From positions 62,001 to 126,000 of the forward strand of contig USOX01000001.1 of NCBI GenBank assembly GCA_900556485.1: 64,000 nt of DNA, given 5' to 3'. This document shows positions 48,274 through 61,520 of the stretch, piece by piece. The position numbers were made by a program, and so were the translations under genes. The first letter of the stretch is position 1; the number at the start of each line of letters is the position of its first letter. The DNA is from an uncultured Dysgonomonas sp. Lineage in GTDB: Bacteria; Bacteroidota; Bacteroidia; Bacteroidales; Dysgonomonadaceae. Under the pieces are notes generated by a model that saw nothing but the letters and a program-made list of their open reading frames with translations, made no database searches and had not been told where the DNA came from.

Positions 48274-48287
48274 CCAAATCGTTACCT
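48274..48287 (+). repeat. Left copy of the subterminal direct repeat of the element
   Basis: CCAAATCGTTACCT, matching 61507-61520; with the preceding GTT and one mismatch, an 18-nt match. Contains GTTACC twice (GTTACC-AAATC-GTTACC), suggesting tandem recombinase-binding sites. Confidence 0.7.
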
Positions 48288-48372
48288 GAGCATCTTTTTG
48301 AAATTCTTTGTATAGTACTATTATTCAGTTATTTGCGTAATTTTGCATAGTGCCGGATAACTCTAAGTAAAC

Positions 48373-48380
48373 TAATTTTG
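48373..48380 (+). promoter_or_regulatory. -7 box of the integrase gene
   Basis: TAATTTTG matches TAnnTTTG, 21 nt before the ATG; no -33 element at the normal distance. Confidence 0.45.
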
Positions 48381-48401
48381 TAACATTAAAAACGATGAGT
48401 T

Positions 48402-49691
48402 ATGCGAAGTACATTTAAGGTTCTCTTTTACCTGAAAAAGAACAGTTTGAAACCGGACGGTAAAGCTCCCATCATGGGCAGAATAACCGTCAACAGTTCC
48501 ATTGCCCAGTTTAGCTGTAAGCTAAACATAAAGCCTGACCTTTGGGATACCAAAGCAAACAAAGCTTCCGGTAAAAGTATAGAAGCGCAGAAGATTAACC
48601 AAAAGCTGGATAATATCCGTACACAAATCGGGAAACAATACCAAAGCATCTGCGATAAGGATAATTTTGTGACAGCCGAAAAAGTAAAAAACGGTTATCT
48701 GGGTTTCGGAGAAGAATATCGTACCTTATTATCCGTTGCTGATGAGTTTTACGAACAATTCAGTAAACGGGTAGGGAAAGACCGGACAGACGGCTCATAT
48801 GAACAACTTCTTATCAATCGCAAGCGTGTTGAAAGTTTTCTTCGTGACAAATACAACCTGTCCGATATCCCCCTCAGAGAGATAGAGCCCCAATTTATTC
48901 AGGATTATTATTCCTACTTGCTTGAAGAACGTAAATTAGCAGGAAGCACATTGCTGACAGCTATAACCAAACTTAAACAAATCATGCTTATTGCCCAGCG
49001 TCGTGGTTTCGTTCGGGTCAACCCATTTGCTGGATTCCGTTTCAAAGCACAAACCCGGGATAGAGGTTATTTGACCGAAGATGAATTACAGCGATTTATG
49101 ACGGTAGAGTTAAGACGATACAAACAACGACAGATTCGGGATATTTTCGTTTTTCAGGCTTTTACTGGTCTTGCTTATGCCGATGTAAAGAAACTTACCT
49201 TTGATGATATACAAAAGTCATTTGATGGCGAAATGTGGCTGATTGCCAAACGGAAGAAAACAGGAACGACATTTTATGTTAAATTACTACCTATAGCCAA
49301 ACAGCTTATTGAACAGTATCGTCTGGTAGCAAAAAATAAGTTTATTTTTCCGGTTCCGAGCAATGCAGAAAATATGAACCGCACACTAAGGCGTATCGGA
49401 AAACAAGCCGGAATCACGAAGTGGATCTCGTCACATATGGCCCGCCACACAATGGCTACCACAGTTTGCCTGTCGCAGGGAGTACCCATTGAAACTGTTT
49501 CCCAAATGTTGGGACACAGCAATATTCATACTACACAAATATACGCCAAAATCACCAATGAAAAGATCAGTCGTGATATGGCTGTACTAACCGATAGAAT
49601 CGGAGATAAATATCAAGTAGAAACGAATAGACCTGATTCCGATTTCAGGAATATCGGGAAAGTGGGAAAAAGAAATAAATCCATGCTATGA
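48402..49691 (+). CDS. Tyrosine-type site-specific integrase of the mobile element
   Basis: 429 residues. N-terminal arm-binding region, about 1-90 (FYLKKNSLKPDGKAPIMGRI), SAM-like core-binding domain, about 105-205, and catalytic domain. The HxxR box is HMAR (His345, Arg348), followed by LGHSNIHTTQIYAK with the nucleophilic Tyr. The first catalytic Arg is replaced: FTGLAYADV has Ala where most relatives have TGLR; loss of this Arg is known for IntDOT-type enzymes of Bacteroides conjugative transposons. It overlaps the next gene by 4 nt. Confidence 0.95.
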   Translation: MRSTFKVLFYLKKNSLKPDGKAPIMGRITVNSSIAQFSCKLNIKPDLWDTKANKASGKSIEAQKINQKLDNIRTQIGKQYQSICDKDNFVTAEKVKNGYLGFGEEYRTLLSVADEFYEQFSKRVGKDRTDGSYEQLLINRKRVESFLRDKYNLSDIPLREIEPQFIQDYYSYLLEERKLAGSTLLTAITKLKQIMLIAQRRGFVRVNPFAGFRFKAQTRDRGYLTEDELQRFMTVELRRYKQRQIRDIFVFQAFTGLAYADVKKLTFDDIQKSFDGEMWLIAKRKKTGTTFYVKLLPIAKQLIEQYRLVAKNKFIFPVPSNAENMNRTLRRIGKQAGITKWISSHMARHTMATTVCLSQGVPIETVSQMLGHSNIHTTQIYAKITNEKISRDMAVLTDRIGDKYQVETNRPDSDFRNIGKVGKRNKSML

Positions 49692-50050
49692 AAGAAGAAA
49701 TAACAGTCTCCGGTTTAATAGAGCTTATTGAGTCCGGTGAAAGAAAAAATATCCGGCTACGCAGTTGGCAATTGGCGAAATTATTCGGCGTATATGAATC
49801 CACGATAAATGCCAATGTAAAGGCAATTATACGGGCGGATGTAATAAAAGTATGCTTAGATTGCGAAGTTAGGTTATATGGGAATATACTTATTCCCGAA
49901 ACTTGTGATTTGGAAATGATTATAGCTCTATCTTTCAGAATCAACACTTACGAAGCATCCATGTTTCGAAAGTGGATAATTCGTAAAATAATCAGTAAAC
50001 CACCCAATATAATAATTTTACCTATTGATACTCCCCGGATAATTAACTAA
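49688..50050 (+). CDS. Small HTH-like protein coupled to the integrase
   Basis: 120 residues. A likely HTH is seen in SWQLAKLFGVYESTINANVK; the C-terminal half has FRINTYEASMFRKWIIRK. Starts in the integrase stop codon (ATGA at 49688-49691), so made with the integrase, and probably acts as a recombination or expression cofactor. The start resembles the RhuM-type DNA-binding proteins only weakly. Followed by a strong terminator. Confidence 0.7.
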   Translation: MKEEITVSGLIELIESGERKNIRLRSWQLAKLFGVYESTINANVKAIIRADVIKVCLDCEVRLYGNILIPETCDLEMIIALSFRINTYEASMFRKWIIRKIISKPPNIIILPIDTPRIIN

Positions 50051-50079
50051 GTTCTTGTGGTATTGTTCGTAATAAAGGA

Positions 50080-50119
50080 AAACACCCTATTTGTTCTTGA
50101 AACGCAAAATAGGGTGTTT
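50080..50119. terminator. Terminator of the integrase operon
   Basis: 13-bp perfect stem AAACACCCTATTT (50080-50092) with its complement at 50107-50119; 14-nt loop. Confidence 0.85.
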
Positions 50120-50161
50120 CGATTTTATAAAGTTGAACTTTCAATCCTTATAAATACATTT

Positions 50162-50560
50162 TTAACTGAAAAACATACAACAAATATCATTGGATGATGG
50201 GGTCAGTTCTTTTATCTTAATATGAAAAGATGAGGTTTCCCATCTGTTTTTGATAAAATTGTAATCGTAAGTTTCTTTGAAGTAAGATATACACTTCTCA
50301 ATGGTTTCGTTTTCATCCGGGAATAAATATACGATATTACATTTTCCTTCTGTATTGAATACACAAGTTATTGTGTACTCTTCCTTATCAAAGCGTATTT
50401 CGATTGATTTTTCCGTAACATCCTTTTCAAAATAATCTATCAGGCAATGAGGATAATCTCTATATTTATTCTTTATTTCGGGTAATGTGATGTTTAAAAG
50501 GCTATTGATTTGTTTAAGCAGGTTAGCATAGTCATTTATGCCAACAGTATTATTGTCCAT
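50162..50560 (-). CDS. Hypothetical element-encoded protein
   Basis: 132 residues, acidic, soluble; no family recognised. The first 60 residues are helical, the middle reads like beta strands (SIEIRFDKEEYTITCVFNTE). Flanked by the integrase terminator and a divergent promoter region shared with the nucleotidyltransferase-HEPN gene. The leader contains a 9-bp palindrome just before the start (50578-50598). Confidence 0.6.
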   Translation of the reverse strand: MDNNTVGINDYANLLKQINSLLNITLPEIKNKYRDYPHCLIDYFEKDVTEKSIEIRFDKEEYTITCVFNTEGKCNIVYLFPDENETIEKCISYFKETYDYNFIKNRWETSSFHIKIKELTPSSNDICCMFFS

Positions 50561-50577
50561 AAGATACGTTCCTTTTT

Positions 50578-50598
50578 AATCTGATTCACAATCAGATT
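50578..50598. repeat. Palindrome in the leader of the hypothetical gene
   Basis: AATCTGATT-CAC-AATCAGATT, perfect 9-bp arms, 18 nt before the start codon on the minus strand. Possible operator or translation-control hairpin. Confidence 0.5.
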
Positions 50599-50697
50599 AG
50601 ATGAATAATTAGGATAGCTTACTGATTACCTGTAGTTATATCAGCTTATTTGTTTTGTATAGATAGGCACAGAACAAATAAAAACAGGAACGCAGGG

Positions 50698-50756
50698 CAA
50701 AGATACAACTTCATGTAAAAACGTTAAAACAAATCGGGGATTTTTTCGTAGTTTTG
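50698..50756. promoter_or_regulatory. Divergent promoter region
   Basis: Minus-strand TATCTTTG (50698-50705) and plus-strand TAGTTTTG (50749-50756) both fit the -7 consensus. A minus-strand TTTG at 50730-50733 lies 24 nt from its box, somewhat far. Confidence 0.5.
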
Positions 50757-50785
50757 TGTTTTTAATATTCTACCTATCAAGGGCA

Positions 50786-51676
50786 ATGAAAAATTCAATA
50801 ACATATCTACCGAAAGATAAACAGGAAGACCTCAACTTCTTGATTAATGAGGTATTAAAACGTCTTCCTCAAACGGAGTATATTATTCTGTACGGTAGTT
50901 ATGCAAGGGATAATTATGTGAAGCGAGGAATAAGGGTTGAAGATGGTGGTATCCCTACCGTTAAGATATCGGATTATGATATACTGGTTGTTACAAGCGG
51001 TATCAACTCTAAGAAAGCGGAAACGGTACTTGACAATGTAGAAGACATTTTCTTTGCCGGTAAAGATTTTGACCGTGATACACCCGTTCAGTTTATCAAT
51101 GATGATATAAAGACATTTAATAAATACATAGAGGAAGGCAGGTATTTTTATACCCAGATAAAGGAAGAGGGTATTATCCTTTACAATAGTGGTAAATTCA
51201 AATTAGCACGAAGAAGAAAACTTAACTTCGATGAGATAAAGGAGCAAGCACAGGAATATTTTGATGAGAAGTTTCAAGGAGCCAATGAGTTTCTCCACGG
51301 AGCAAAACTTTTTTATAATGAAACATACTATAAAAAATCATCATTTTTACTCCATCAAGCCTGTGAAAACTACTACTATGCTATTCGTTTATCATTTACT
51401 TTAAGAAACAATAAACAGCATAACCTCTCTAAACTATCCGGCTCGGTCAAAAAGTATTCGGATGAGCTTAAAACAGTTTTCCCACAGGATACGCCGGAAG
51501 AGAAACGGCTTTTTACACTACTGAAAGCTGCTTATGTAGATGCAAGATATAATCCGCATTTTGTAGTTACAAAGGAGGATATTGATGCACTTATCCCTAA
51601 AGTGGAATTATTGAGGGATATCACTAAAAAGATTTGCGAAGTAAGGATTAGAGAGTATGGAGAAAAAACACTCTGA
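50786..51676 (+). CDS. Nucleotidyltransferase-HEPN fusion protein
   Basis: 296 residues from the ATG at 50786; a GTG at 50756 lies inside the -7 box and is rejected. The N-terminal minimal nucleotidyltransferase has ILYGSYARDN and the metal-binding SDYDILVV. The C-terminal half (about 150-285) is helical and fits a HEPN domain (FLHGAKLFYNETYYKKSSFL, LLHQACENYYYA). The two modules occur as separate toxin and antitoxin proteins in MNT-HEPN pairs; fused forms are frequent on Bacteroides mobile elements. Role here unknown: regulation or defence. Confidence 0.85.
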   Translation: MKNSITYLPKDKQEDLNFLINEVLKRLPQTEYIILYGSYARDNYVKRGIRVEDGGIPTVKISDYDILVVTSGINSKKAETVLDNVEDIFFAGKDFDRDTPVQFINDDIKTFNKYIEEGRYFYTQIKEEGIILYNSGKFKLARRRKLNFDEIKEQAQEYFDEKFQGANEFLHGAKLFYNETYYKKSSFLLHQACENYYYAIRLSFTLRNNKQHNLSKLSGSVKKYSDELKTVFPQDTPEEKRLFTLLKAAYVDARYNPHFVVTKEDIDALIPKVELLRDITKKICEVRIREYGEKTL

Positions 51677-51689
51677 TTCTCTATAATGA

Positions 51690-51758
51690 TTACTTGCTTT
51701 TCTTCTCGATATATTTTATCATATAATTTGCGGTATATTCAAAAGCCGGATCGATCAT
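51690..51758 (-). other. Possible 22-codon ORF
   Basis: MIDPAFEYTANYMIKYIEKK then SK and stop; coding-like composition and right after the NTase-HEPN gene on the opposite strand. Too short to assign; may be the end of a degraded gene. Confidence 0.2.
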
Positions 51759-51945
51759 TTCGTTACAGGGGAAAGATTGTTCCACAAGTGTAAACATTCA
51801 AATCCGAGCCTAACGGTCGGATACGAAAATCTCCACCCTAAAGGGTAGTATTTTCGCCCCGAGACTTGCCTGTTTTCACTTCCGGAACCTTGAGAAGCCC
51901 CTGCAACGAAACGACCGACCCGACGATGACGCATATCATCCAAAT
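51759..51945. other. GC-rich non-coding segment with hairpins
   Basis: No convincing gene, although a 71-codon frame crosses it on the minus strand. More GC-rich than its surroundings, and has short palindromes such as ACCCTAAAGGGT (51835-51846). May be an RNA element or a remnant of element backbone. Confidence 0.3.
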
Positions 51946-51985
51946 AAAACAAGCATCCTTTTATAATCAAAAGAATGCTTGTTTT
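51946..51985. terminator. Terminator downstream of the excisionase-type genes
   Basis: Stem AAAACAAGCAT (51946-51956) with its complement at 51975-51985, continued by CTTTT/AAAAG; 6-nt loop. Serves the minus-strand genes ending at 52049. Confidence 0.85.
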
Positions 51986-52048
51986 CTCATTATGCAGGCA
52001 ACTTCAACTCCCTCCCCTCAAAATCAGCATATTCATTTTTGTTCCTCT

Positions 52049-52348
52049 TTAAAAAGGCAGTTCCGGTGACCTGTAATTCTGATACAGTACCTGTTGCAGT
52101 TCTTCCTCCGGGTAAAGTATTTTACCACCAATCATTGTATAACATATTAGGCGATTATCACGCAAATTCTGGAGTGTCCGGGGTGAAATATGAAGGTATT
52201 TCATTACTTCCTCTCCGCTTAGGTATCGCTTGTCTGCTAACGTAGGACGATGTTTATCACGGACATCTTGTATATCCTGAAAGGATTGTTTAATTTGTCC
52301 TTCAAATTCCTTGAACTCTTCGGATGAAAAATCAATAAACTTATCCAT
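52049..52348 (-). CDS. Excisionase-type helix-turn-helix protein
   Basis: 99 residues; an N-terminal helical part followed by a MerR/Xis-like winged helix: YLSGEEVMKYLHISPRTLQN then GGKILYPEEELQQVL. Proteins of this type direct excision or transfer-gene expression in Bacteroides elements. Starts within the stop of the next HTH pseudogene (TAATG), so it was part of a coupled pair. Confidence 0.82.
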   Translation of the reverse strand: MDKFIDFSSEEFKEFEGQIKQSFQDIQDVRDKHRPTLADKRYLSGEEVMKYLHISPRTLQNLRDNRLICYTMIGGKILYPEEELQQVLYQNYRSPELPF

Positions 52349-52632
52349 TATAACCTCCGTTTCATACCCTCTTCGAGAAGTTTATTAATATCTTCCTCGC
52401 GATAGTAAACTTTACCTCCCAGCATAGAATAAGGCATTTTGCCGTTATTCCGCCATGTTTGAAGCGTTCGTTTTGAAATACCGAGCGCACGACAGACATC
52501 CGACGAATCTATTCAGCCGTCACGGGGATTGGGGCAGTATAGCTCTTTCAATGCACTCACTTCTGTTGTCAGCCTTTTTATCTGCTGCCTGATATTTTCC
52601 CAGGCATACAAGTCTATGCAAACAATTTCCAT
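52348..52632 (-). pseudogene. Second excisionase-type HTH gene, interrupted by an in-frame TGA
   Basis: The frame from the ATG at 52632 reads MEIVCIDLYAWENIRQQIKR, then ...CPNPRDG, then TGA at 52513-52515 (codon 40), then IDSSDVCRALGISKRTLQTW and an intact wing GGKVYYREEDINKLL up to the stop at 52348. Relatives usually have Trp before I/L-D-S at this place, so one base change (TGG to TGA) explains it. No start codon follows before the HTH, so the DNA-binding part is probably not made. Confidence 0.8.
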
Positions 52633-52635
52633 ATT

Positions 52636-53007
52636 TTATTCCTTTTCATTAAATGTGTTTGCCAGTGAACGTTTCAGTCCTTCATTAGCAACACGGGTGA
52701 TTAATTCTTTATTTACCACTAAATGGTCTGCAAGGATATTCGACAATAGAATAGTCGGTGTAATATCCGGTACAATATGTTGCAGGGAAGAAACCAATGT
52801 TTGTAACTTTTCTTTCATCCGAACATCAATATATACCGGAGTATAGTCCTTTACTTTTTGCACCCCTAAAAAACGCCGGGTATAATCTTCCTCGTCTTTT
52901 TTTCGGGACACTTTCGTTTTGGGTGCTGTTCATGTGCTATCCTCAATCATTTCGGATATATCTATCTTTTCAGATTCCTGCTTACCTTTTTCCAATTCTG
53001 TATTCAT
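52636..53007 (-). pseudogene. DUF3408-like gene with an in-frame TGA near its start
   Basis: The frame from ATG 53007 reads MNTELEKGKQESEKIDISEM...EDST, then TGA at 52930-52932 (codon 26), then TAPKTKVSRKKDEEDYTRRF... to the stop at 52636. The downstream part has the DUF3408 look (YIDVRMKEKLQTLVSSLQHI, VVNKELI) found in Bacteroides element proteins. A GTG at 52911 could restart translation to give 91 residues, so partial function is possible. Confidence 0.7.
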
Positions 53008-53462
53008 ATATGTTTTATTAAAAAGTTCATATTAGCCGGAGGATTCCGGCTGTTATCTCTCTCAACTGGATAATCAGGACAGTCATTCATCCCTGATACG
53101 GTTGGCTTTACCCATAACCTACATTCTTTCGGAAGGATAAACGATATACGACCTTGCATACCGTTGTTTCCGAAATCGGGTGCAAGATATGAACTCCCGT
53201 ATGTCCACCCTGTTTAGATAACAGCCTTACATAACAGCTTTGGGCTGTATGCCATTGATTATCAAATTGATTTTGTAAAATATATAATATAAATCCGGCT
53301 AAATTGCTAACATAGGTAAGCCTGTCAATTGGCATTAACCCATTGATACACAACGAAAGTTGGCAAATTGAGTAGAATTGAAAATATTTTCAACTTTTTT
53401 GGAAAATATTTCTATGAGTTATAAATCAGGATATAATTAACGGCTCATGCAGTATTTATTGG
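53008..53462. other. Non-coding region of the element with paired palindromes
   Basis: No credible gene (a minus-strand 81-codon frame at 53108-53353 has no recognisable features). Contains two near-identical GAAAATATTT palindromes at 53380-53391 and 53402-53413. Upstream of the excisionase-type genes, so probably their control region. Confidence 0.5.
53380..53413. promoter_or_regulatory. Pair of phased AT palindromes, putative operator
   Basis: GAAAATATTTTC (53380-53391, perfect 12-bp palindrome) and GAAAATATTTCT (53402-53413) start 22 bp apart, i.e. about two helical turns, on the same face of the helix. Confidence 0.5.
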
Positions 53463-54437
53463 TTACTCATCCCGGTATTCGTTCATTTCTTCTATAGCCT
53501 CATCTATGATAATCAGCCCGCGGACAGCCTCCTTTTCACTCTTCTTACGGTTGTTCTGGAATTGTTGCATAGGAATATAGTGTTGTTCATCACCGTAGCG
53601 TTGTCTATTGCCTTCGGTGCGGAATGATATAAAGTCTTTGTTTCCGTCGGCAACAGAAATCCATTTTTCTTTGATATAATGATATTCTTTCAATCGTTCT
53701 AAAAGGTAAACCAGTGTTTTTTGGTTGGTCACTTCTAACGGTTCCGTCAATTTCCCTTTCAGTAGTTTTTTGAGGTCAGTTACCTTTAACCGAAGGCGGA
53801 ATAGTTTTATTTGCTCTATACATTCTGCTAATAGTGTATATTGTTTGTTGTTTAGTTTGGGTTCATAAGAGCGTTTGGGTTGGGTTCGTTTGGTTTTTGA
53901 TTGGGAAGTAGCCTCTATTTCGATTTTCGTTTCTTCATTTCCGGCTGCCGGAGTTTTCTTATCCGATAAATCTTCTTCGGATTCGGTTTTTGGCTCGGAT
54001 ACTTTATCTTCATATTTCATTAAGAGCCGTTCCAAAGTGATAAGGTCAACCAATTCCTTAAAATAAGGCAAATCTATTTTATCCAATTCTTCCGCATAGT
54101 TTGCCGGATTTATCTCTACCGGCGCAGCCTTAAACGTACGGTAACGCTGATAAACCTCTTTGGTAATATCATCATAGAAATCGCTGTACCAAAGGTAATT
54201 CTCCCGTCCGTCATGAAAATAACGCGGAACACTTTCAAGCGGGGGATTATGACGGATAATATCTAATATCTTTCCCCGATATAGGGTAATCTCTTCCGGT
54301 GTGGGTTTCATCCGGTACAACATACCGGACGCAGTCTCATAACTTATACCTACAAAGCGGTCAAGACATTGTTGAACCTCACGGAAACCTTCTTCCGGGA
54401 AGTCAGGATATTCTATGTTATCATCCAATTCAAACAT
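53463..54437 (-). CDS. Hypothetical element-encoded protein
   Basis: 324 residues, mostly helical and charged, no signal or TM segment, with a low-complexity acidic/basic hinge at about 148-190 (EPKTESEEDLSDKK). The C-terminal third (about 205-300) has alternating helices and strands (RLRLKVTDLKKLLKGKLTEP, LVYLLERLKEYHYIKEKW) that could be a winged helix. No family recognised. The three ATGGGT repeats around its start suggest self-regulation or a replication-type role. Confidence 0.65.
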   Translation of the reverse strand: MFELDDNIEYPDFPEEGFREVQQCLDRFVGISYETASGMLYRMKPTPEEITLYRGKILDIIRHNPPLESVPRYFHDGRENYLWYSDFYDDITKEVYQRYRTFKAAPVEINPANYAEELDKIDLPYFKELVDLITLERLLMKYEDKVSEPKTESEEDLSDKKTPAAGNEETKIEIEATSQSKTKRTQPKRSYEPKLNNKQYTLLAECIEQIKLFRLRLKVTDLKKLLKGKLTEPLEVTNQKTLVYLLERLKEYHYIKEKWISVADGNKDFISFRTEGNRQRYGDEQHYIPMQQFQNNRKKSEKEAVRGLIIIDEAIEEMNEYRDE

Positions 54438-54494
54438 GGGTTAAAGATACATATTTTCAAAGTAATATGGGTAATATTAGTAACATGGGTAATA
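54436..54494. repeat. Iteron-like ATGGGTAATA repeats at the start of the 324-aa gene
   Basis: ATGGGTAATA at 54467-54476 and 54485-54494, with a related ATGGGTTAAA at 54436-54445; spacings 31 and 18 bp. Confidence 0.5.
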
Positions 54495-55143
54495 AAGGTA
54501 GCTTACTCTATATGTATGGATAGCAGATGAATGCAACCGAAAGCAAAATTATAGGCAAATGTTTGACTATCATGTTTATAACTTATATTTGTTTTTTGTA
54601 TCTATGTTGGATGCATCTAAATATAATGTACAATGGTAACTTTATCCAAACTTATTCTTTCTAACAGCTCTCTATACACTTGAAGAGCTAATGGCAATAC
54701 AATCCATGTATTGCTAAACCCGGGCGGTCTACTCTTGAGTCCGGCTTTATTCAAAATGATTGTCGACGAGCCAAAAAACAAAGAGACTTCCGCCTCTTTA
54801 TTTTTTTTCGTGCGCCAAAGGAGCAAGGTAATCGCACGGGTAACCCGAAATTCGCCTTTGGCTCTTCCGGCTTCCTTCCGTGCATACCTTGCCCTGCGGG
54901 GCTGTGACCACGCAAAAGATAAATCCGGCGTACCTTGAATTTCCCTTTTGCTTCAAAACCCGCTCCCGTTGGTCACAGCTTTTGAGGTCACTGAACAGCC
55001 CTTTCGTGCTGCTCCCGATGGTCGCATCCCTATCGGGCTGTTGGACAAACCTTCACTTCATCTCCCGTTGGTCGCTTCCGTTCAGGCTTGCCCGGAGGGT
55101 GGAAACGAACGGATATTTTTCCATAATTCTAAAGGAATGCTTT
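54495..55143. other. Region upstream of mobC: terminator plus GC-rich candidate oriT
   Basis: About 650 nt without a convincing gene. A hairpin AAAGAG/CTCTTT (54780-54799) is followed by a T run (54801-54808), a terminator on the plus strand. From about 54810 to 55100 the DNA is much more GC-rich, with GCAAGGTA near 54824 and its complement TACCTTGC near 54885 and several CCCGTTGG/CCCGATGG motifs. Position directly before mobC and the relaxase gene is where oriT normally lies in mobilizable Bacteroides elements. Confidence 0.5.
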
Positions 55144-55494
55144 ATGGAAAATAAGAAAAAGGATAAGACCAAAAGAGGTCGCCCCGTGAAAGAAAAAGCG
55201 AAACTAACCAATTCGATTAATCTAAAATTGACCGAAGCGGATTTCAATTCCATAAAGGAAAAGGCAGAAAAGTTGGGTATGAAAGCTACACAATATGTGC
55301 GGGAAATGACATTAAAAGGAGGTATTAAATCCCGCTTCACTTTGGAAGAACTCGACATGATGCGAAAGCTATCGGGTATGGCTAATAACCTGAATCAGAT
55401 AGCTAAACAGGCAAATACTTATGGGTATTCCAATACAGCTTTGGATGTAATAATAATATTGGAACAACTAAAAAAGCTGCTGCATGATCGCTAA
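55144..55494 (+). CDS. mobC: MobC-type relaxosome protein
   Basis: 116 residues from ATG 55144; the longer open frame from 54880 runs through the GC-rich candidate oriT and is rejected. The sequence has a basic N-terminus, a ribbon-helix-helix-like part (NSINLKLTEADFNSIKEKAE) and the MobC-type phrase LSGMANNLNQIAKQAN. It would assist the relaxase at oriT. It overlaps the relaxase gene by 11 nt. Confidence 0.88.
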   Translation: MENKKKDKTKRGRPVKEKAKLTNSINLKLTEADFNSIKEKAEKLGMKATQYVREMTLKGGIKSRFTLEELDMMRKLSGMANNLNQIAKQANTYGYSNTALDVIIILEQLKKLLHDR

Positions 55495-56719
55495 GAATAT
55501 AAAAGGAAAATCGTTTAAAGGTTGTGTTTCATATGTAATGAATGATACGGCAACAATCCTTGAAGCAGAAGGTATTTGGGCGGATAATACAAAGAATATT
55601 ATCCGCAGCTTTGCCATACAACGCTCAGGCAGGAAAGAAATAAAACAGCCTGTAGGCCATATTCCTATATCGTTTTCACCAGAGGATAAAGACCGTATGA
55701 CGAATGAATTTATGGTACAGCTTGCCAAAGAATACATGCTGGAAATGGGTATCAAGAATACACAATATGTCATAGTACGGCATGATAATACAGAAAATCC
55801 GCATCTGCATATTGTATATAACAGGATTAATAATGACTTGAAATTAATATCTGTCAATCACGATTATAAACGGAATATTAAGGTTTGCAAGAAGCTAAAA
55901 GATAAATATAACCTGACTTATGGTAAGGGAAAAGAAAAGGTAAAGCGGGAAAAGCTTGATAATCAGGATAAGGTAAAGTATAAAATCCACGATGCGATTA
56001 AGGCTGTTTTACCATACTGTAAAACCCCGAACGAATTAAAATCAATACTCAATCAAGTGGGTATTGAAACGGAATTTAAACTTAAAAGAACAACCGGAGA
56101 GATTGAAGGTATATCTTTCCAGTATGGAGATATTGCTTTCAAAGGTTCGCAGATTGATAGGAAATTCAGTTATAGAAATCTAAAAAAAGAGTTCATCAAG
56201 ACCCAACAGACACAAGAAAATAGCATACAGGAAGAACAAAAACAGAAAACGAACCAAGCTCAACGACAAGCCATAGAAAAACCAAAAGCGGAAAGTGTTC
56301 CGACTATCGGAGGAATCAGATTAACCAAAGAACAGTTCAAAACACTTAAAGATGGTGGGTATATTTACCTTGAAAATATGCAAAAGAAAGACGGAACTAA
56401 GCTATCGGCTTATGTGTTTTTCGATGATAAAATGACTAAGCCGTTATTTACAAAACAGCAACCCGAATCATTCACGAAGTACGGTAAATATGAAATGCGA
56501 CTGATGGATAAGATGAGAATTGAAGCAGGGTTTGTAACCCATGCAAAAGTGAAATGGTATGGTGGAGGGTATGCCTATCCGTATTTGTGGAAAGTGAATA
56601 AAGCGGATAATGAGTATAAGGAAGCATGGGGTAATCCGAGAGTGGAAAAAGATAGCAAACTTAAAAATAAGCCAAAATTATCTGCAATTTCGAAGATAAA
56701 TAAAGGGCGGAAAATGTAA
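55484..56719 (+). CDS. HUH relaxase / mobilization nuclease (MobA/VirD2-like)
   Basis: 411 residues. The relaxase motif is VRHDNTENPHLHIVYNRI with the metal-binding His100, His107 and His109; the likely nucleophile Tyr lies near the N-terminus. The C-terminal region beyond about residue 250 is Lys/Gln-rich and has an extra globular part (about 265-400). It nicks oriT and pilots the strand through a helper conjugation channel. Coupled to mobC. Confidence 0.92.
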   Translation: MIAKNIKGKSFKGCVSYVMNDTATILEAEGIWADNTKNIIRSFAIQRSGRKEIKQPVGHIPISFSPEDKDRMTNEFMVQLAKEYMLEMGIKNTQYVIVRHDNTENPHLHIVYNRINNDLKLISVNHDYKRNIKVCKKLKDKYNLTYGKGKEKVKREKLDNQDKVKYKIHDAIKAVLPYCKTPNELKSILNQVGIETEFKLKRTTGEIEGISFQYGDIAFKGSQIDRKFSYRNLKKEFIKTQQTQENSIQEEQKQKTNQAQRQAIEKPKAESVPTIGGIRLTKEQFKTLKDGGYIYLENMQKKDGTKLSAYVFFDDKMTKPLFTKQQPESFTKYGKYEMRLMDKMRIEAGFVTHAKVKWYGGGYAYPYLWKVNKADNEYKEAWGNPRVEKDSKLKNKPKLSAISKINKGRKM

Positions 56720-56744
56720 GTTGTTAAAAATACTTATGCACTTT

Positions 56745-56776
56745 TTTGTTATAATCAACTGTTATCAATACATTTG
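56745..56776 (+). promoter_or_regulatory. Consensus promoter of the cargo operon
   Basis: TTTG (56745-56748), 20-nt spacer, TACATTTG (56769-56776). Predicted start near 56783, with a small inverted repeat TCAAT-N6-ATTGA (56786-56801) at the leader, a candidate autoregulatory site for the first gene. Confidence 0.75.
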
Positions 56777-56800
56777 CATCTCATGTCAATAATTTGATTG

Positions 56801-57004
56801 ATGAAACAAATAAATAGATTAAAGGTCGTATTAGTTGAACAGCAACGTACTGGTAAATGGCTTGCTGAAACGTTAGGGAGAAATGAAGCTACCGTTTCTC
56901 GTTGGTGTACGAATGAGACCCAACCATCATTAGAGACACTCGCAGAAATAGCTAAAGTTTTGAATGTAGATATTAAAGATTTACTCATTTCAACAAAAAA
57001 ATGA
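56801..57004 (+). CDS. XRE-family helix-turn-helix regulator (cargo gene 1)
   Basis: 67 residues from ATG 56801. Single Cro/C1-type HTH: GKWLAETLGRNEATVSRWCT followed by PSLETLAEIAKVLNVDIKDL. It resembles C-protein-like controllers of restriction-modification systems in size and position, directly before a methylase gene whose ATG overlaps its stop (ATGA at 57001-57004). Likely autorepressor or timing control. Confidence 0.85.
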   Translation: MKQINRLKVVLVEQQRTGKWLAETLGRNEATVSRWCTNETQPSLETLAEIAKVLNVDIKDLLISTKK

Positions 57005-58092
57005 TAGTGAATTTGCAAGAAGAAATAAAAAAATTCCCTACAACAAGATATCAAGGAAGTAAAAGAAAAATTCTTCCTTGGATCTATGATTGTCTTAAAG
57101 ATATAGAGTTTAATACGGTTTTGGATGCTTTTGGAGGGAGTGGAATGGTAAGCTACCTATTTAAGAAAATGGGAAAATCAGTGACTTTTAATGATATTCT
57201 TCAATTTAACAAAATCATTGGAGAATCAATAATATCAAATAATGAGTATATTTTAACAGATTCAGATGTACAACATATTTTGAGCAAAAAGGAAAAAATA
57301 AAAACTTTCATTGCAGATAATTTCCAAGGAATATATTATTTGGAGGAAGAGAATATTTGGATTGATACTATTGTACATAATATCAAAAATTTAGATAATA
57401 AATATACAGGAGATGAATTGAAATATAAAAAAGCAATTGCATATAATGCATTATTCCAATCATGTTTAACCAAAAGACCGTATAATCTTTTTCACAGGAA
57501 GAATCTTGAAATGAGAACCAGAGATGTTCAACGCAACTTTGGGAATAAAACCACTTGGGAAACGCCTTTCCAAAACCATTTTAAAAAGTTTGTATTTGAA
57601 ATTAATCAATCAGTTTATAAATCTGAAATGCCATGCTACTCAACAAATAAAGATGTATTCGAAATAGAGGATGTTGGATATGATCTGGTTTATATTGATT
57701 CACCATATATTAAAAAGAATGATGGGCGCAATGAAAGTTCTGATTATTTAAAATGTTACCATTTTTTAGAAGGGATTTCCAAATATGATGATTGGTATGA
57801 TTTAATTGATAATAATACTATTAATAAGCGTATAAAGAAAGATATTATGCCTAATTATTTCACACCCAGAGAGGCTTTAACTACATTTGAAAGATTAATT
57901 GAAAAGTTTCAAAATAGCATTATTGTGATTTCATATAAATACGGAGGGAGCCCTTCTATTGAAGAACTTGCAGATATGTTACATAGATACAAGCCACAAA
58001 TACGGATTCATGACAAACACTACAAATACGCCCTCAATAAACAAAACGGAAATGCGGTTTTAAATAGAGAATATATTTTAATAGGATACTGA
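57001..58092 (+). CDS. Dam-like N6-adenine DNA methyltransferase (cargo gene 2)
   Basis: 363 residues. The D12-class layout is clear: TRYQGSKRKILPWIYD at the start, the SAM motif DAFGGSGMVS (Phe44), and the catalytic DSPY at residues 233-236 (a variant of DPPY with Ser). Target sequence not predictable. No restriction endonuclease of recognisable family adjoins it. Immediately followed (1 nt) by the two-TM protein gene, so part of one transcript. Confidence 0.92.
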   Translation: MIVNLQEEIKKFPTTRYQGSKRKILPWIYDCLKDIEFNTVLDAFGGSGMVSYLFKKMGKSVTFNDILQFNKIIGESIISNNEYILTDSDVQHILSKKEKIKTFIADNFQGIYYLEEENIWIDTIVHNIKNLDNKYTGDELKYKKAIAYNALFQSCLTKRPYNLFHRKNLEMRTRDVQRNFGNKTTWETPFQNHFKKFVFEINQSVYKSEMPCYSTNKDVFEIEDVGYDLVYIDSPYIKKNDGRNESSDYLKCYHFLEGISKYDDWYDLIDNNTINKRIKKDIMPNYFTPREALTTFERLIEKFQNSIIVISYKYGGSPSIEELADMLHRYKPQIRIHDKHYKYALNKQNGNAVLNREYILIGY

Positions 58093-58093
58093 T

Positions 58094-58804
58094 ATGAATA
58101 TCTTTAAAACAAACATTAAGATTAGAGCTACAATTATTGTTATAGCATGTCTGATATTGGCTACCATTGGAATTTGGTTATTATATGCAAATACCAGTGA
58201 TGCTAAAGTATCTGCAATACTCGGCAGCTTATTTGCTGGATTAATAGTAGCAATAATACAGTTTATTATAGCATGGCAGGATTATAAACAAACAGAAAAA
58301 TTAAAAGAACTTGAACTGATAGAAGTTTTATATAGTCGGGATAGCCGTGCATTTTATGAGAAATACATAAAACGGTCTCAACGAAAAATTAACATGATGG
58401 GAGTAACTGCAAGTCGGTTTTTTAATGATTTTGCAGACGATAGTCCAAATGCACCTAAAGAAGCACAAATCTTATTAGATGCATTACGTCGGGGTGTAAA
58501 AGTGAGGATTTTACTTCCTGAATCTGATTATATTGAGAATATTAACAAGAAACAGGATGTAGATAAAGTAAAGCAAAGGGTTATTGAAATAAATAAAAAA
58601 TATCCAAGTTATTCTTTAGAAGTTAAATATTTCAATCATACACCTGCGCATAGTATATTTAATGTTGATGACAAATGTATAGTTGGACCAGTTTTCCCAG
58701 AACTTGAAAGTAAATATACACCTGCTCTCTATCTACGAAATTCCAGTCCTATAGCCAATAAATACCTAACTTATTTTGAATATGAATGGAATAGGGCGGA
58801 ATGA
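58094..58804 (+). CDS. Two-TM protein with degenerate phospholipase-D-like domain (cargo gene 3)
   Basis: 236 residues: two transmembrane helices, about 12-32 and 40-60, then a cytoplasmic domain with the PLD-type order: INMMGVTASRFFNDF, an LLDALRRGVKVRILLPESD strand-helix, and PAHSIFNVDDKCIVGP around His186. The HxKx4D signature is degenerate: His186 and Asp193 are present but Ile188 replaces Lys, and only one half-motif is seen. The C-terminus (TPALYLRNSS) is like DUF5919-type proteins. Membrane-anchored effector or sensor is an inference. Confidence 0.75.
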   Translation: MNIFKTNIKIRATIIVIACLILATIGIWLLYANTSDAKVSAILGSLFAGLIVAIIQFIIAWQDYKQTEKLKELELIEVLYSRDSRAFYEKYIKRSQRKINMMGVTASRFFNDFADDSPNAPKEAQILLDALRRGVKVRILLPESDYIENINKKQDVDKVKQRVIEINKKYPSYSLEVKYFNHTPAHSIFNVDDKCIVGPVFPELESKYTPALYLRNSSPIANKYLTYFEYEWNRAE

Positions 58805-59783
58805 TAAAAAAGGAAAAATAATCTCTTTCCCTAGAGTTCATATTACCCTAATTGGTATGAATAGTGGCGGATATCGAATTAATGGTAGTATTGGATTTTC
58901 GATATCTTCACCAGAGATAGAAGTTTACTATGAGAAATCTAATAATATAGAAATTTTCGATGAAAGAGAATTAATGTTCACGAAGCAGGAAAAAGATAGA
59001 CTATACAATGTTTTAATTGAAACCACAAAAAAGTTATCTTTAAAAAATAAAATTAGATGCATTATTAAAGGTTATGCATTACCTCATTATGGATTAGGTT
59101 CAAATACGGCAATATATATGTCATGTATTGAAGCATTGTTGATATTAAATGAGGTAAAATATAATCAGAATGATATAGTTGCATATTCTAAAAGAGGCGG
59201 AACATCTGGAATTGGTATAAATACCTATTTTGAGGGTGGATTTATTTTTGATGTTGGAATAAAAAGCAATGAACAATCGCTTAACCCATCCTCTATTGCT
59301 GATAGAAATGGAAAAACACCATTAGTAATACATAAGTGTAAATTGCCTGATTGGGAAATTGGTATCTGTATACCAAAATATATTCAAAATAAATCAGAAC
59401 AGGAAGAGGTAGATTTTTTTAAAACATATTGTCCCATCGAAAAAAAATCTATTGAAAGTATTTTATATGAGGCAGTTTATGGGGTCACTTCTTCAATACT
59501 TGAAAATGATTATGATGTTTTCTGTCAATCTATAAATACAATCCAATCTACACAATGGAAGTATTTAGAACGACTTTTATATGGAGAGACATTGATTGAA
59601 TTAGAACAAAAAATTAAAATATTAGGTGCTGATTGTGTTGGAATGTCAAGTTTAGGACCTACGCTATTTTTTACAGGAAATAATATCAGTGCCATCACTG
59701 AAAAAATTTCTCATGAAACTCCTGAAATAATTTGTTATTGTACATCGTTCAACAATAAAGGAAGGATAATTAATCATGACTGA
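58782..59783 (+). CDS. GHMP-superfamily protein resembling beta-RFAP synthase (cargo gene 4)
   Basis: 333 residues from ATG 58782 (a TTG two codons earlier is less likely). The GHMP fold is shown by RVHITLIGMNSGGYRINGSI at the start and GLGSNT at residues 104-109. The pattern RGGTSGIGINTYFEGGF (from Arg138) and LPDWEIGICIP, then CVGMSSLGPTLFF near the end, are strongly like archaeal beta-ribofuranosylaminobenzene 5'-phosphate synthase, which makes a C-riboside from PRPP. A bacterial, element-borne homologue is unexpected. Overlaps both neighbours (23 and 8 nt). Confidence 0.75.
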   Translation: MNGIGRNDKKGKIISFPRVHITLIGMNSGGYRINGSIGFSISSPEIEVYYEKSNNIEIFDERELMFTKQEKDRLYNVLIETTKKLSLKNKIRCIIKGYALPHYGLGSNTAIYMSCIEALLILNEVKYNQNDIVAYSKRGGTSGIGINTYFEGGFIFDVGIKSNEQSLNPSSIADRNGKTPLVIHKCKLPDWEIGICIPKYIQNKSEQEEVDFFKTYCPIEKKSIESILYEAVYGVTSSILENDYDVFCQSINTIQSTQWKYLERLLYGETLIELEQKIKILGADCVGMSSLGPTLFFTGNNISAITEKISHETPEIICYCTSFNNKGRIINHD

Positions 59784-61353
59784 TATCACATTTATCACAT
59801 CTAATCCGACCAAACTTGCACATGCTAGACACTTATGCATAGGATATGATGTTAACATATTGCAATATAAGAAATTGTTCTATGGTATAGGATATGAAGA
59901 ACCTCGTTTATTTGATAGAGAAAAATTGTTAGAAGAAAGTTTTAATGATGCTATTACACGGTGGAAAAAAAATGTTTCAAATTACGGGGACAGATTATTC
60001 TTTATAGAAGATACATCTGTAAGAATTGATGCATTGAGCAATGATAATGATGAAGTTCCCGGAGTTGATGTGAAATATTGGATGCAATCACATAATTTTG
60101 TCCAATTAGATAAAGAACTAAAAAAAAGGGGAAATAACAGAAAAGTGAGTGTTTCTTCTCACATTATATTATTTTTAACGAATGAACTAAAGAAGAAATT
60201 AAAAACAGAAAAAGATCATATTCTTTTTAAAAGTACTTCGTATGGTACAATTGTTCAGAAAGAGCAAAAATTTGACACCCAAATTCTTTATCCTTGGTTA
60301 GATAATAAAACTTTTAACAAATGGTTTGTCCCTGATGGATTTAATATGCCAATTAGTATGTTGGCTATTTCGGAAGCAGACAAGAGTGACTTTAGAAAAG
60401 GAGCATTTGAACAATTGCTCAATTTTTTAAAAGAACATGAAATAATAAAACCTATCAAAAAAGTTTCACCTATCCCTAGACTACATTTTAATCCTTTATA
60501 TATAGTTTGTGGTCCAACATGTGCCGGAAAATCAACTATAGGAAAGTTATTGCTAGAAAAATATGATTATTATCATATTGAAGCAAGTGATTTCATGACT
60601 TTAAGATATTTTGAAACGCATGGAACTAAATTTTCTGTTGATAAAAATATTTTTGCGGCAGAATTATTAAAGGTAAATCCATTATTCGTTGTAGAAAGTA
60701 CGATAAATTATATTATATCTAAAAAAATATTTGACAATTTTATCATTACGGGTTTTAGAACACCTGAGGAGGTGGAAAGTTTCTTTAAGATGTTTCTCTC
60801 ACAAAATATGAAGCGAATATATATTACTGCGGATTCAACGATAAGATATGATAGATGGGTAAAACGTCAAAGAGATATGATTGATTATACTCCAGAAAGA
60901 TTTGAGAAAATTAATAAACTTCAAGAAGAAATGGGTTTGTTCAAAATAAAAGAAATGAAGAATACAATCCAATATGAAAATAATAAAGAAGGTTTACCTG
61001 CATTATATAACGATTTCCAACAAAATATTATAAAGATGCCTCCAACATCTAAAGAAATTGATATAAATTTAATTATATCCACATCCAGAATATCTTTAGA
61101 GAAAGCTATTTTTTTCATATTGGCGATTGAATATAGGAAAAATGAGTCTTTATATCATACTACAACTGAAATATCTCATTTAATCAATAATACTTTTAAA
61201 GGATTTAAGAAAAATAAAAATAATATTAGTAGATATTTCAATCAGGCATATTATCCATATTATGAGATAAAAAAAGAACATGGGAAAAATAAGTATAAAC
61301 TTTCTCCAACGGGATATTCTGAAGCCGTTTTTATGATGCGTAATATGAAATAG
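59776..61353 (+). CDS. Fusion of Ham1-like NTP pyrophosphatase, P-loop kinase and winged-helix-like domain (cargo gene 5)
   Basis: 525 residues. Residues 1-215 resemble Ham1/RdgB: TSNPTKLAHAR at 8-18 (the substrate-binding [T/S]xNxxK) and EDTSVRIDAL from Glu78, PGVDVKYW and a C-terminal FRKGAFEQLLNFL like the family's SHR-region helix. Residues about 235-400 are a P-loop kinase with Walker A GPTCAGKST at 246-254 and an Arg-rich lid (RYDRWVKRQRDM). The last 90 residues look like a winged helix (TTEISHLINNTFKGF, YKLSPTGYSEAVF). Such a fusion would couple hydrolysis or sensing of unusual NTPs to a phosphotransfer. Confidence 0.8.
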   Translation: MTDITFITSNPTKLAHARHLCIGYDVNILQYKKLFYGIGYEEPRLFDREKLLEESFNDAITRWKKNVSNYGDRLFFIEDTSVRIDALSNDNDEVPGVDVKYWMQSHNFVQLDKELKKRGNNRKVSVSSHIILFLTNELKKKLKTEKDHILFKSTSYGTIVQKEQKFDTQILYPWLDNKTFNKWFVPDGFNMPISMLAISEADKSDFRKGAFEQLLNFLKEHEIIKPIKKVSPIPRLHFNPLYIVCGPTCAGKSTIGKLLLEKYDYYHIEASDFMTLRYFETHGTKFSVDKNIFAAELLKVNPLFVVESTINYIISKKIFDNFIITGFRTPEEVESFFKMFLSQNMKRIYITADSTIRYDRWVKRQRDMIDYTPERFEKINKLQEEMGLFKIKEMKNTIQYENNKEGLPALYNDFQQNIIKMPPTSKEIDINLIISTSRISLEKAIFFILAIEYRKNESLYHTTTEISHLINNTFKGFKKNKNNISRYFNQAYYPYYEIKKEHGKNKYKLSPTGYSEAVFMMRNMK

Positions 61354-61506
61354 CAAGAAGATATTGCTTTCCGAGAATAATGCTATAAAATAAATTGGAA
61401 ATATCAGATTTAATATTATTTGTAAAATAAAACATTTACCTATCTTTGTAATAGGGTTATTTGATACATGTAAAATCTATGCAAATAGATGTTGAAAGAA
61501 CCGTTG
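61354..61506. other. Right end of the element, non-coding
   Basis: About 150 AT-rich nt with only a weak hairpin AGCAA/TTGCT (61352-61368) after the last cargo gene; no strong terminator seen. Confidence 0.5.
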
Positions 61507-61520
61507 CCAAATCGTTACCT
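61507..61520 (+). repeat. Right copy of the subterminal direct repeat of the element
   Basis: CCAAATCGTTACCT, identical to 48274-48287 and in the same orientation; 60 nt from the right junction. Confidence 0.7.

Follow-up and report, generated by a model that had tools for sequence, protein, structure and literature searches.

What could bind a DNA methylase, a two-transmembrane PLD-like protein, a predicted C-riboside synthase and a Ham1-kinase fusion protein into one operon? The question is raised by a 64,000-nucleotide stretch of an uncultured Dysgonomonas sp. (contig USOX01000001.1 of assembly GCA_900556485.1, positions 62,001 to 126,000; the whole of this stretch is called the window below), in which these four genes and a small XRE-type regulator form an operon on a mobilisable element. 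The methylase (MT), PLD-like protein (PLD), synthase (RFAP) and fusion protein (HAMK) are a genuine conserved system, of which there is practically no doubt, and the answer proposed here is that they serve in defence, perhaps with a nucleotide as signal.

Protein searches at E 0.001 found 667 relatives of HAMK, 734 of RFAP and 222 of PLD (the best 120 of each were listed, and the HAMK search scored only the top 7,993 candidates). Among the 120 best RFAP rows, 47 equal a HAMK row in the exact length of the longest contig, compared with a mean of 0.85 and a maximum of 3 such matches when the lengths were shifted by 1-50 bases as a control. Loci were taken from one GTDB genome scan with exact peptide patterns (31 loci, hence a biased sample) and from 72,556 plasmid records (4 loci), and a six-frame hidden Markov model search located HAMK in all 36 when the window was added. 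Four loci were set aside: in L026, L028 and L029 a contig edge leaves no more than the end of HAMK (followed by MT in L029), and in L030 only a C-terminal stretch matches. In the remaining 32, RFAP always precedes HAMK, PLD precedes RFAP in 31 (the exception is L016, and the L012 copy has a stop), and MT precedes PLD in 27, a figure that takes in the contig-cut L021 and L024 and the frame-broken L075 as well as L004, L009 and L010, where a gene designated C4 intervenes. Of the five others, L006 has MT after HAMK, L014 has a 74-residue remnant of MT, and none was seen in L012, L016 and L023. Two further genomes (L109, L110) have all four genes in order, so that the order MT-PLD-RFAP-HAMK is found in 29 of 34 informative loci, which argues that the co-occurrence is more than chance. 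The tree distances of the four proteins also correlate: over 25 loci, r is 0.66-0.87 in the six comparisons, in none of which did any of 1000 permutations give so high a value.

A first-pass annotation, made from the sequence alone, had proposed to test whether the five genes recur together across unrelated elements. This holds for MT, PLD, RFAP and HAMK, in fixed order, and fails for the regulator: the window protein (HTH_26 by family scan, with the PADLOC models RmrA and PDC-M64C at about 1e-6) finds no match upstream of the other loci in a phmmer search at E 1, and for this reason was rejected as a core gene. Other XRE-like proteins can be seen by eye near its position in L001, L006 and L018. 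The outcomes that the first-pass annotation had named as refuting it did not arise: four genes and not merely two co-occur, and the clustered neighbourhoods contain no constantly linked housekeeping pathway.

The named hosts are Bacteroidota and alpha-, beta- and gammaproteobacteria, with Methylovulum miyakonense, Rhizobium bangladeshense and a Sphingomonas among the cultured carriers; Chlorobiota, Ignavibacteriota and Bdellovibrionota are represented by one metagenome-assembled genome each, and the Ignavibacteriota copy groups among alphaproteobacterial copies in the HAMK tree. HAMK is present in the seed genome only among 395 genomes of Bacteroidota, 199 of the Sphingomonas family and 346 of the Mesorhizobium family (1 each), in 2 of 399 of the Dechloromonas order (the seed and one new), and in 8 of 201 of the Methylomonas family, seeds included (by coordinates one is new, G579). 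Since it is rare, patchy in genomes and not found in phage records or IMG/VR, the operon has the pattern of an accessory module.

The neighbourhood of the operon suggests what such a module might be for. At E 1e-20, 119 proteins of at least 110 residues encoded within 6 kb of 13 loci reached 98 PADLOC models, and 126 proteins of 13 control regions, each 12 kb long and taken from the same contigs, reached 5, a comparison that counts models rather than proteins (related models being counted several times) and whose control consists of 13 regions that themselves reach those 5 models. The flank matches include, among the first 25 models listed, type I methylase and specificity subunits, DpdF, PsyrT, DarT and PDC-S01, and the control matches are mad3 (4 members), MzaA and IetA; the flanks also contain plain metabolic genes. 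Directly 5' of MT are a type IIG restriction-modification enzyme (L009), a type I HsdR (L010) and the DUF4143 ATPase of PDC-S01 (L027), and the PDC-M29A ATPase is two genes upstream of MT in L002; 5 of the 10 neighbours scanned have no strong PADLOC match.

The clearest example is a natural exchange of genes. In R. bangladeshense PLR8-1a the operon is situated on plasmid p2, flanked by a GGDEF gene on one side and an ABC transporter on the other. The same flanks enclose PDC-M68, a DrmD-like helicase and a TmtA-like gene instead of the operon in strain BLR175, and, inverted, another lineage of the operon in R. leguminosarum 22B, only 64-65% identical where the stretches align. In the other four Rhizobium plasmids compared, this region holds, respectively, an NB-ARC protein (as annotated; no PADLOC match), an HNH nuclease, ABC-3C genes with a match to the retron effector DUF626_VIII, and pieces of ABC-3C together with recombinase and PIN genes. 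The five plasmids compared were chosen for differing flank distances from 93 and 215 records with flank matches, and a sugar-uptake cassette, which is not a defence gene set, is present in 2 of the 5 slots and in PLR8-1a. The slot (L072, L073, L111-L115) looks like a hotspot for varied conflict genes. Because the flanks are rich in PADLOC models and conflict genes replace one another in the plasmid slot, a role of the operon in defence or conflict is highly probable; the nearness to defence genes that the first-pass annotation named as a check is evident in the upstream neighbours, the flanks and the slot alike. Separately, the L113 slot contains an adenylosuccinate synthetase without a PADLOC match, and a 742-residue protein without a Pfam family but with a weak mad2 match is encoded upstream of the Methylovulum operon (L003, 4087-6315).

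How the four proteins might act is indicated by their conserved residues. RFAP is, judged by sequence, very likely a C-riboside synthase. The window protein scores 165 bits against the TIGR00144 (beta_RFAP_syn) cut-off of 113.5, which RFAP exceeds in 23 of 23 operon genomes, and the equivalents of ForT R19, R135, S139, S174, E211 and K263 are invariant in all 31 RFAP proteins; histidine occupies the position of H99 in 28 of the 31, threonine that of T106 in 28 (serine in 3) and that of T138 in 26, and glycine that of S142 in 31 of 31, like the housekeeping copies. From its ForT-like residues, RFAP is predicted to use an acceptor that is carboxylated and may be heteroaromatic. RFAP thus shares TIGR00144 membership and most residues for catalysis and for binding of phosphoribosyl pyrophosphate (PRPP) with the ForT and beta-RFAP synthases of formycin and methanopterin biosynthesis, but differs from them in scoring below the NF040726 equivalog cut-off (204.2 bits versus 328 for the window protein), in forming a clade apart from six methylotroph housekeeping copies, and in having no recurring antibiotic or methanopterin genes beside it in the clustered loci.

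HAMK consists of a Ham1 domain (residue 1 to about 225), an AdkA-like kinase domain (about 239-421) and a C-terminal helical or winged-helix-like domain (about 425-525). The window protein matches Ham1p_like (PF01725; 44.6 bits versus a cut-off of 22.5) and AAA_18, and the Ham1 domain is above the Pfam cut-off in 9 of 9 genomes. Its catalytic core is kept in 27 of 27 HAMK proteins, so the domain may still be a hydrolase. The motifs FGYDP and SHR, with which Ham1/ITPase proteins read the base, are replaced by F(N/S)KWF and DFR in 27 of 27; the RdgB proteins of the same hosts have FGYDP in 8 of 8 cases and SHR in 7 of 8. The Ham1 part alone gave nothing meaningful in a sequence comparison with solved structures; in a fold search it matches KomB, the dITP sensor of the Kongming system. 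According to the published accounts, binding of dITP to KomB activates the effector KomC (PMC12948488, PMC12774641). The operon shares such a Ham1-fold sensor with Kongming, but the KomA deaminase and KomC SIR2 domains are not among the Pfam matches of the five window proteins, and the operon has instead a C-riboside synthase, a kinase domain of its own, a methylase, a two-transmembrane protein and changed Ham1 motifs. Among the HAMK copies, that of L014 was not accepted as a broken gene (the break contains N), and plasmid pRLN2 of R. leguminosarum (L030, 9977-10159) encodes a stretch like the HAMK C-terminus alone, 48% identical over residues 462-510, which may be either a remnant or a relative that stands alone.

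The PLD of the window matches PLDc_2 weakly (E 6.6e-4; 20 bits, under the Pfam cut-off of 27), and in 26 PLD proteins the HKD motif retains aspartate in 26, histidine in 21 and lysine in none. The loss of the lysine led to rejection of the idea that PLD is a restriction nuclease, a function to which the first-pass annotation had alluded. TrmB and TrmBL2 are among the best fold matches, and PLD is proposed to be a membrane effector with a ligand-binding domain. Two methanotrophs without a whole MT have a divergent PLD variant (L012, 8201-9013, broken by a stop; L014, 8210-8968, intact), and a gene of 164-182 codons, C4, directly precedes PLD in L004 (7800-8294), L006 (7770-8318), L009 (7770-8306) and L010 (7775-8299); neither Pfam nor PADLOC assigns the L004 copy to a family.

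MT of the window matches MethyltransfD12 (E 1.8e-15) and, strongly, PADLOC MTase_II (5.4e-59), the PADLOC 2023 matches of PLD, RFAP and HAMK being weak (E 0.005 to 0.02). D42, G45, G46, D233, P235 and Y236 are present in 24 of 24 MT proteins, and comparison with solved structures gave nothing at E 0.1. A guard role for MT is favoured by a single case, L016, which has lost MT and nearly all of PLD together; its RFAP and HAMK are still 92% identical to those of L017. A rule that MT is lost only alongside a dead effector, which L016 and the stop-broken L012 fit, was rejected on account of the intact PLD of L014 and L023.

The reading that best accommodates these features is a mobile, four-gene defence-type system, guarded by methylation, in which a C-nucleotide is the signal and a membrane protein the effector; to this reading we give a probability of about 0.4. 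RFAP would join PRPP and an aromatic carboxylic acid into a C-ribonucleotide, an analogue of a nucleoside monophosphate with a carbon-carbon glycosidic bond, for phosphorylation by the kinase domain of HAMK; the diverged Ham1 domain would bind or cleave the resulting C-nucleoside triphosphate, as its reader or its eraser. The C-terminal domain may tie HAMK to DNA, so that unmethylated foreign DNA would switch HAMK on, MT keeping host sites methylated as a self mark. The accumulating C-nucleotide would bind the pseudo-PLD domain of the two-transmembrane protein, which in its ligand-bound form would damage the membrane and abort infection. Beyond the enzyme families, the links of this scheme (product, sensing, methylation gating and killing) are what we infer, with Kongming as the precedent. 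That the C-nucleotide signals to the membrane effector is a tentative proposal, and that methylation is the self mark is put forward with similar reserve; it is doubtful that the operon represents a new class of immunity, with a C-nucleotide messenger made from PRPP and an aromatic acid, methylation gating without a nuclease, and a two-transmembrane, TrmB-like pseudo-PLD as executor. What survives of the first-pass proposal is the modified nucleotide acting through a membrane effector, the best available reading and one that fits the conserved residues; the nuclease function of PLD and the conserved regulator do not survive.

Several observations weigh against this reading, in addition to the coarse counting and small control of the flank comparison described above. 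The fold match of PLD to the ligand-binding TrmB is no stronger, within error, than that to the active NucT or SauUSI, and the C-terminal domain of HAMK, which in the model consists of helices followed by two strands and a helix, was barely covered by the fold search. A strict guard role of MT is at odds with L014, which has an intact divergent PLD and only a remnant of MT, and with L023, where an intact PLD has no adjacent MT. Phage records contained no match to HAMK or RFAP, and none of the 36 and 17 stretches of IMG/VR matched by the HAMK and RFAP patterns, respectively, is a relative.

The same enzymes could instead produce an antiviral nucleotide poison, for which prokaryotic viperins are a model: RFAP and the kinase would supply a C-nucleoside triphosphate to stall the polymerases of phages, Ham1 would hydrolyse it to limit self-harm, and the two-transmembrane protein would sense or anchor the pathway. 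The conserved residues of RFAP and of the kinase suit such a poison, as do the possible hydrolase activity implied by the invariant Ham1 core and the reported antimicrobial nature of C-nucleosides such as formycin, but the near-constant linkage of MT and the pseudo-PLD would be left unexplained, and we consider this explanation unlikely. An addiction module of the restriction-modification or toxin-antitoxin type, in which PLD, RFAP and HAMK kill cells from which MT, the antidote, is lost, and defence is secondary to upkeep of the element, would agree with the location of the operon on a mobile element and on plasmids and with the joint loss in L016; it is rather improbable in view of L014 and L023, which have PLD without a whole adjacent MT, and of the many chromosomal copies in defence-type neighbourhoods. 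The adjacency of a nucleotide-making set to a DNA methylase could also signify DNA hypermodification, which is common in phages, with the nucleotide entering or decorating host DNA as protection; the unit has a receptor-like two-transmembrane protein in place of any transferase or polymerase, and the lack of relatives in phage records and IMG/VR likewise makes this very improbable. A lone methylase beside an unrelated metabolic cassette, the alternative offered by the first-pass annotation, can call upon L012, L016 and L023, where no MT adjoins the other genes, but is hardly credible when MT precedes PLD in 27 of 32 loci (with an intervening gene in three of them) and its tree distances correlate with those of PLD, RFAP and HAMK (r 0.66-0.84).

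The operon can also be compared with other known defence systems. It shares with type II restriction-modification a D12 adenine methylase with intact motifs, preceded in the window by a helix-turn-helix gene, but Pfam and PADLOC recognise no endonuclease among the window operon proteins, and PLD is without the HKD lysine. With the transmembrane-effector defences of the CBASS and Thoeris type it has in common the two transmembrane segments and the cytosolic, possibly ligand-binding domain of PLD, but the receptor would be pseudo-PLD or TrmB-like, and the unit has no cyclic-nucleotide synthase or TIR domain. In the open literature of PubMed Central (preprints and subscription journals were outside the scope), no paper was found on the gene set, on ribofuranosylaminobenzene with Ham1 or anti-phage defence, on a C-nucleotide second messenger in bacterial immunity, or on TrmB with PLD. 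We know of no named system in which a C-riboside synthase occurs with a methylase, a Ham1-kinase and a receptor-like membrane protein, and within that literature the gene set MT-PLD-RFAP-HAMK is new. Should the signalling model be true, its nearest kind is nucleotide-messenger immunity: immune signals would come to include C-nucleotides, a Ham1-type sensor would be known from a second system besides Kongming, and methylation would mark self for a system that has no nuclease. Being small and present in cultured strains, the operon is directly testable.

In the window, the operon is at the far end of the mobile element, with the integrase at the opposite end (Table 1). The open reading frames confirm the five same-strand genes of the first-pass annotation and their junctions (an ATGA overlap of XRE and MT, a 1-nt gap between MT and PLD, and overlaps of 23 nt between PLD and RFAP and 8 nt between RFAP and HAMK), and its placement of the operon after the relaxase of a mobile element is likewise correct; the promoter-like sequence that it noted is located 5' of XRE and matches the Bacteroides consensus.

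Table 1. Coordinates of the mobile element and of the operon in the window.
Feature	Position	Strand	Description or basis
Mobilisable element	48274..61520		Contains the operon; bracketed by a 14-bp repeat (domain scan, repeat comparison)
Tyrosine integrase	48402-49691		Start of the element
NikA/MobC-like gene	54880-55494
Relaxase	55484-56719
Promoter-like sequence	56745..56776	+	Bacteroides type, TTTG (56745-56748)-N20-TACATTTG (56769-56776); sequence reading
XRE	56801..57004	+	XRE/HTH_26 regulator, 67 residues; ATG start, TTG at 56798; local, outside the conserved unit
MT	57001..58092	+	D12-class adenine methylase, intact motifs (family scan, PADLOC, residues)
PLD	58094..58804	+	Two hydrophobic N-terminal segments and a PLD-like domain without the HKD lysine
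RFAP	58782..59783	+	Predicted beta-RFAP synthase/ForT-like PRPP-dependent C-riboside synthase; ATG start, TTG at 58776
HAMK	59776..61353	+	Fusion of Ham1, kinase and C-terminal domains (family scan, fold model)

A 12.4-kb query spanning the operon matched no plasmid at the nucleotide level. When the two edge stretches were compared, the 14-bp repeat CCAAATCGTTACCT (48274-48287 and 61507-61520) was the longest sequence that they share exactly; it is likely the attachment core of the element, which, being bracketed by it, measures about 13.2 kb. The same element encodes a 306-residue protein with nucleotidyltransferase (Polbeta/SMODS-like) and HEPN domains (50756-51676), possibly another conflict gene.

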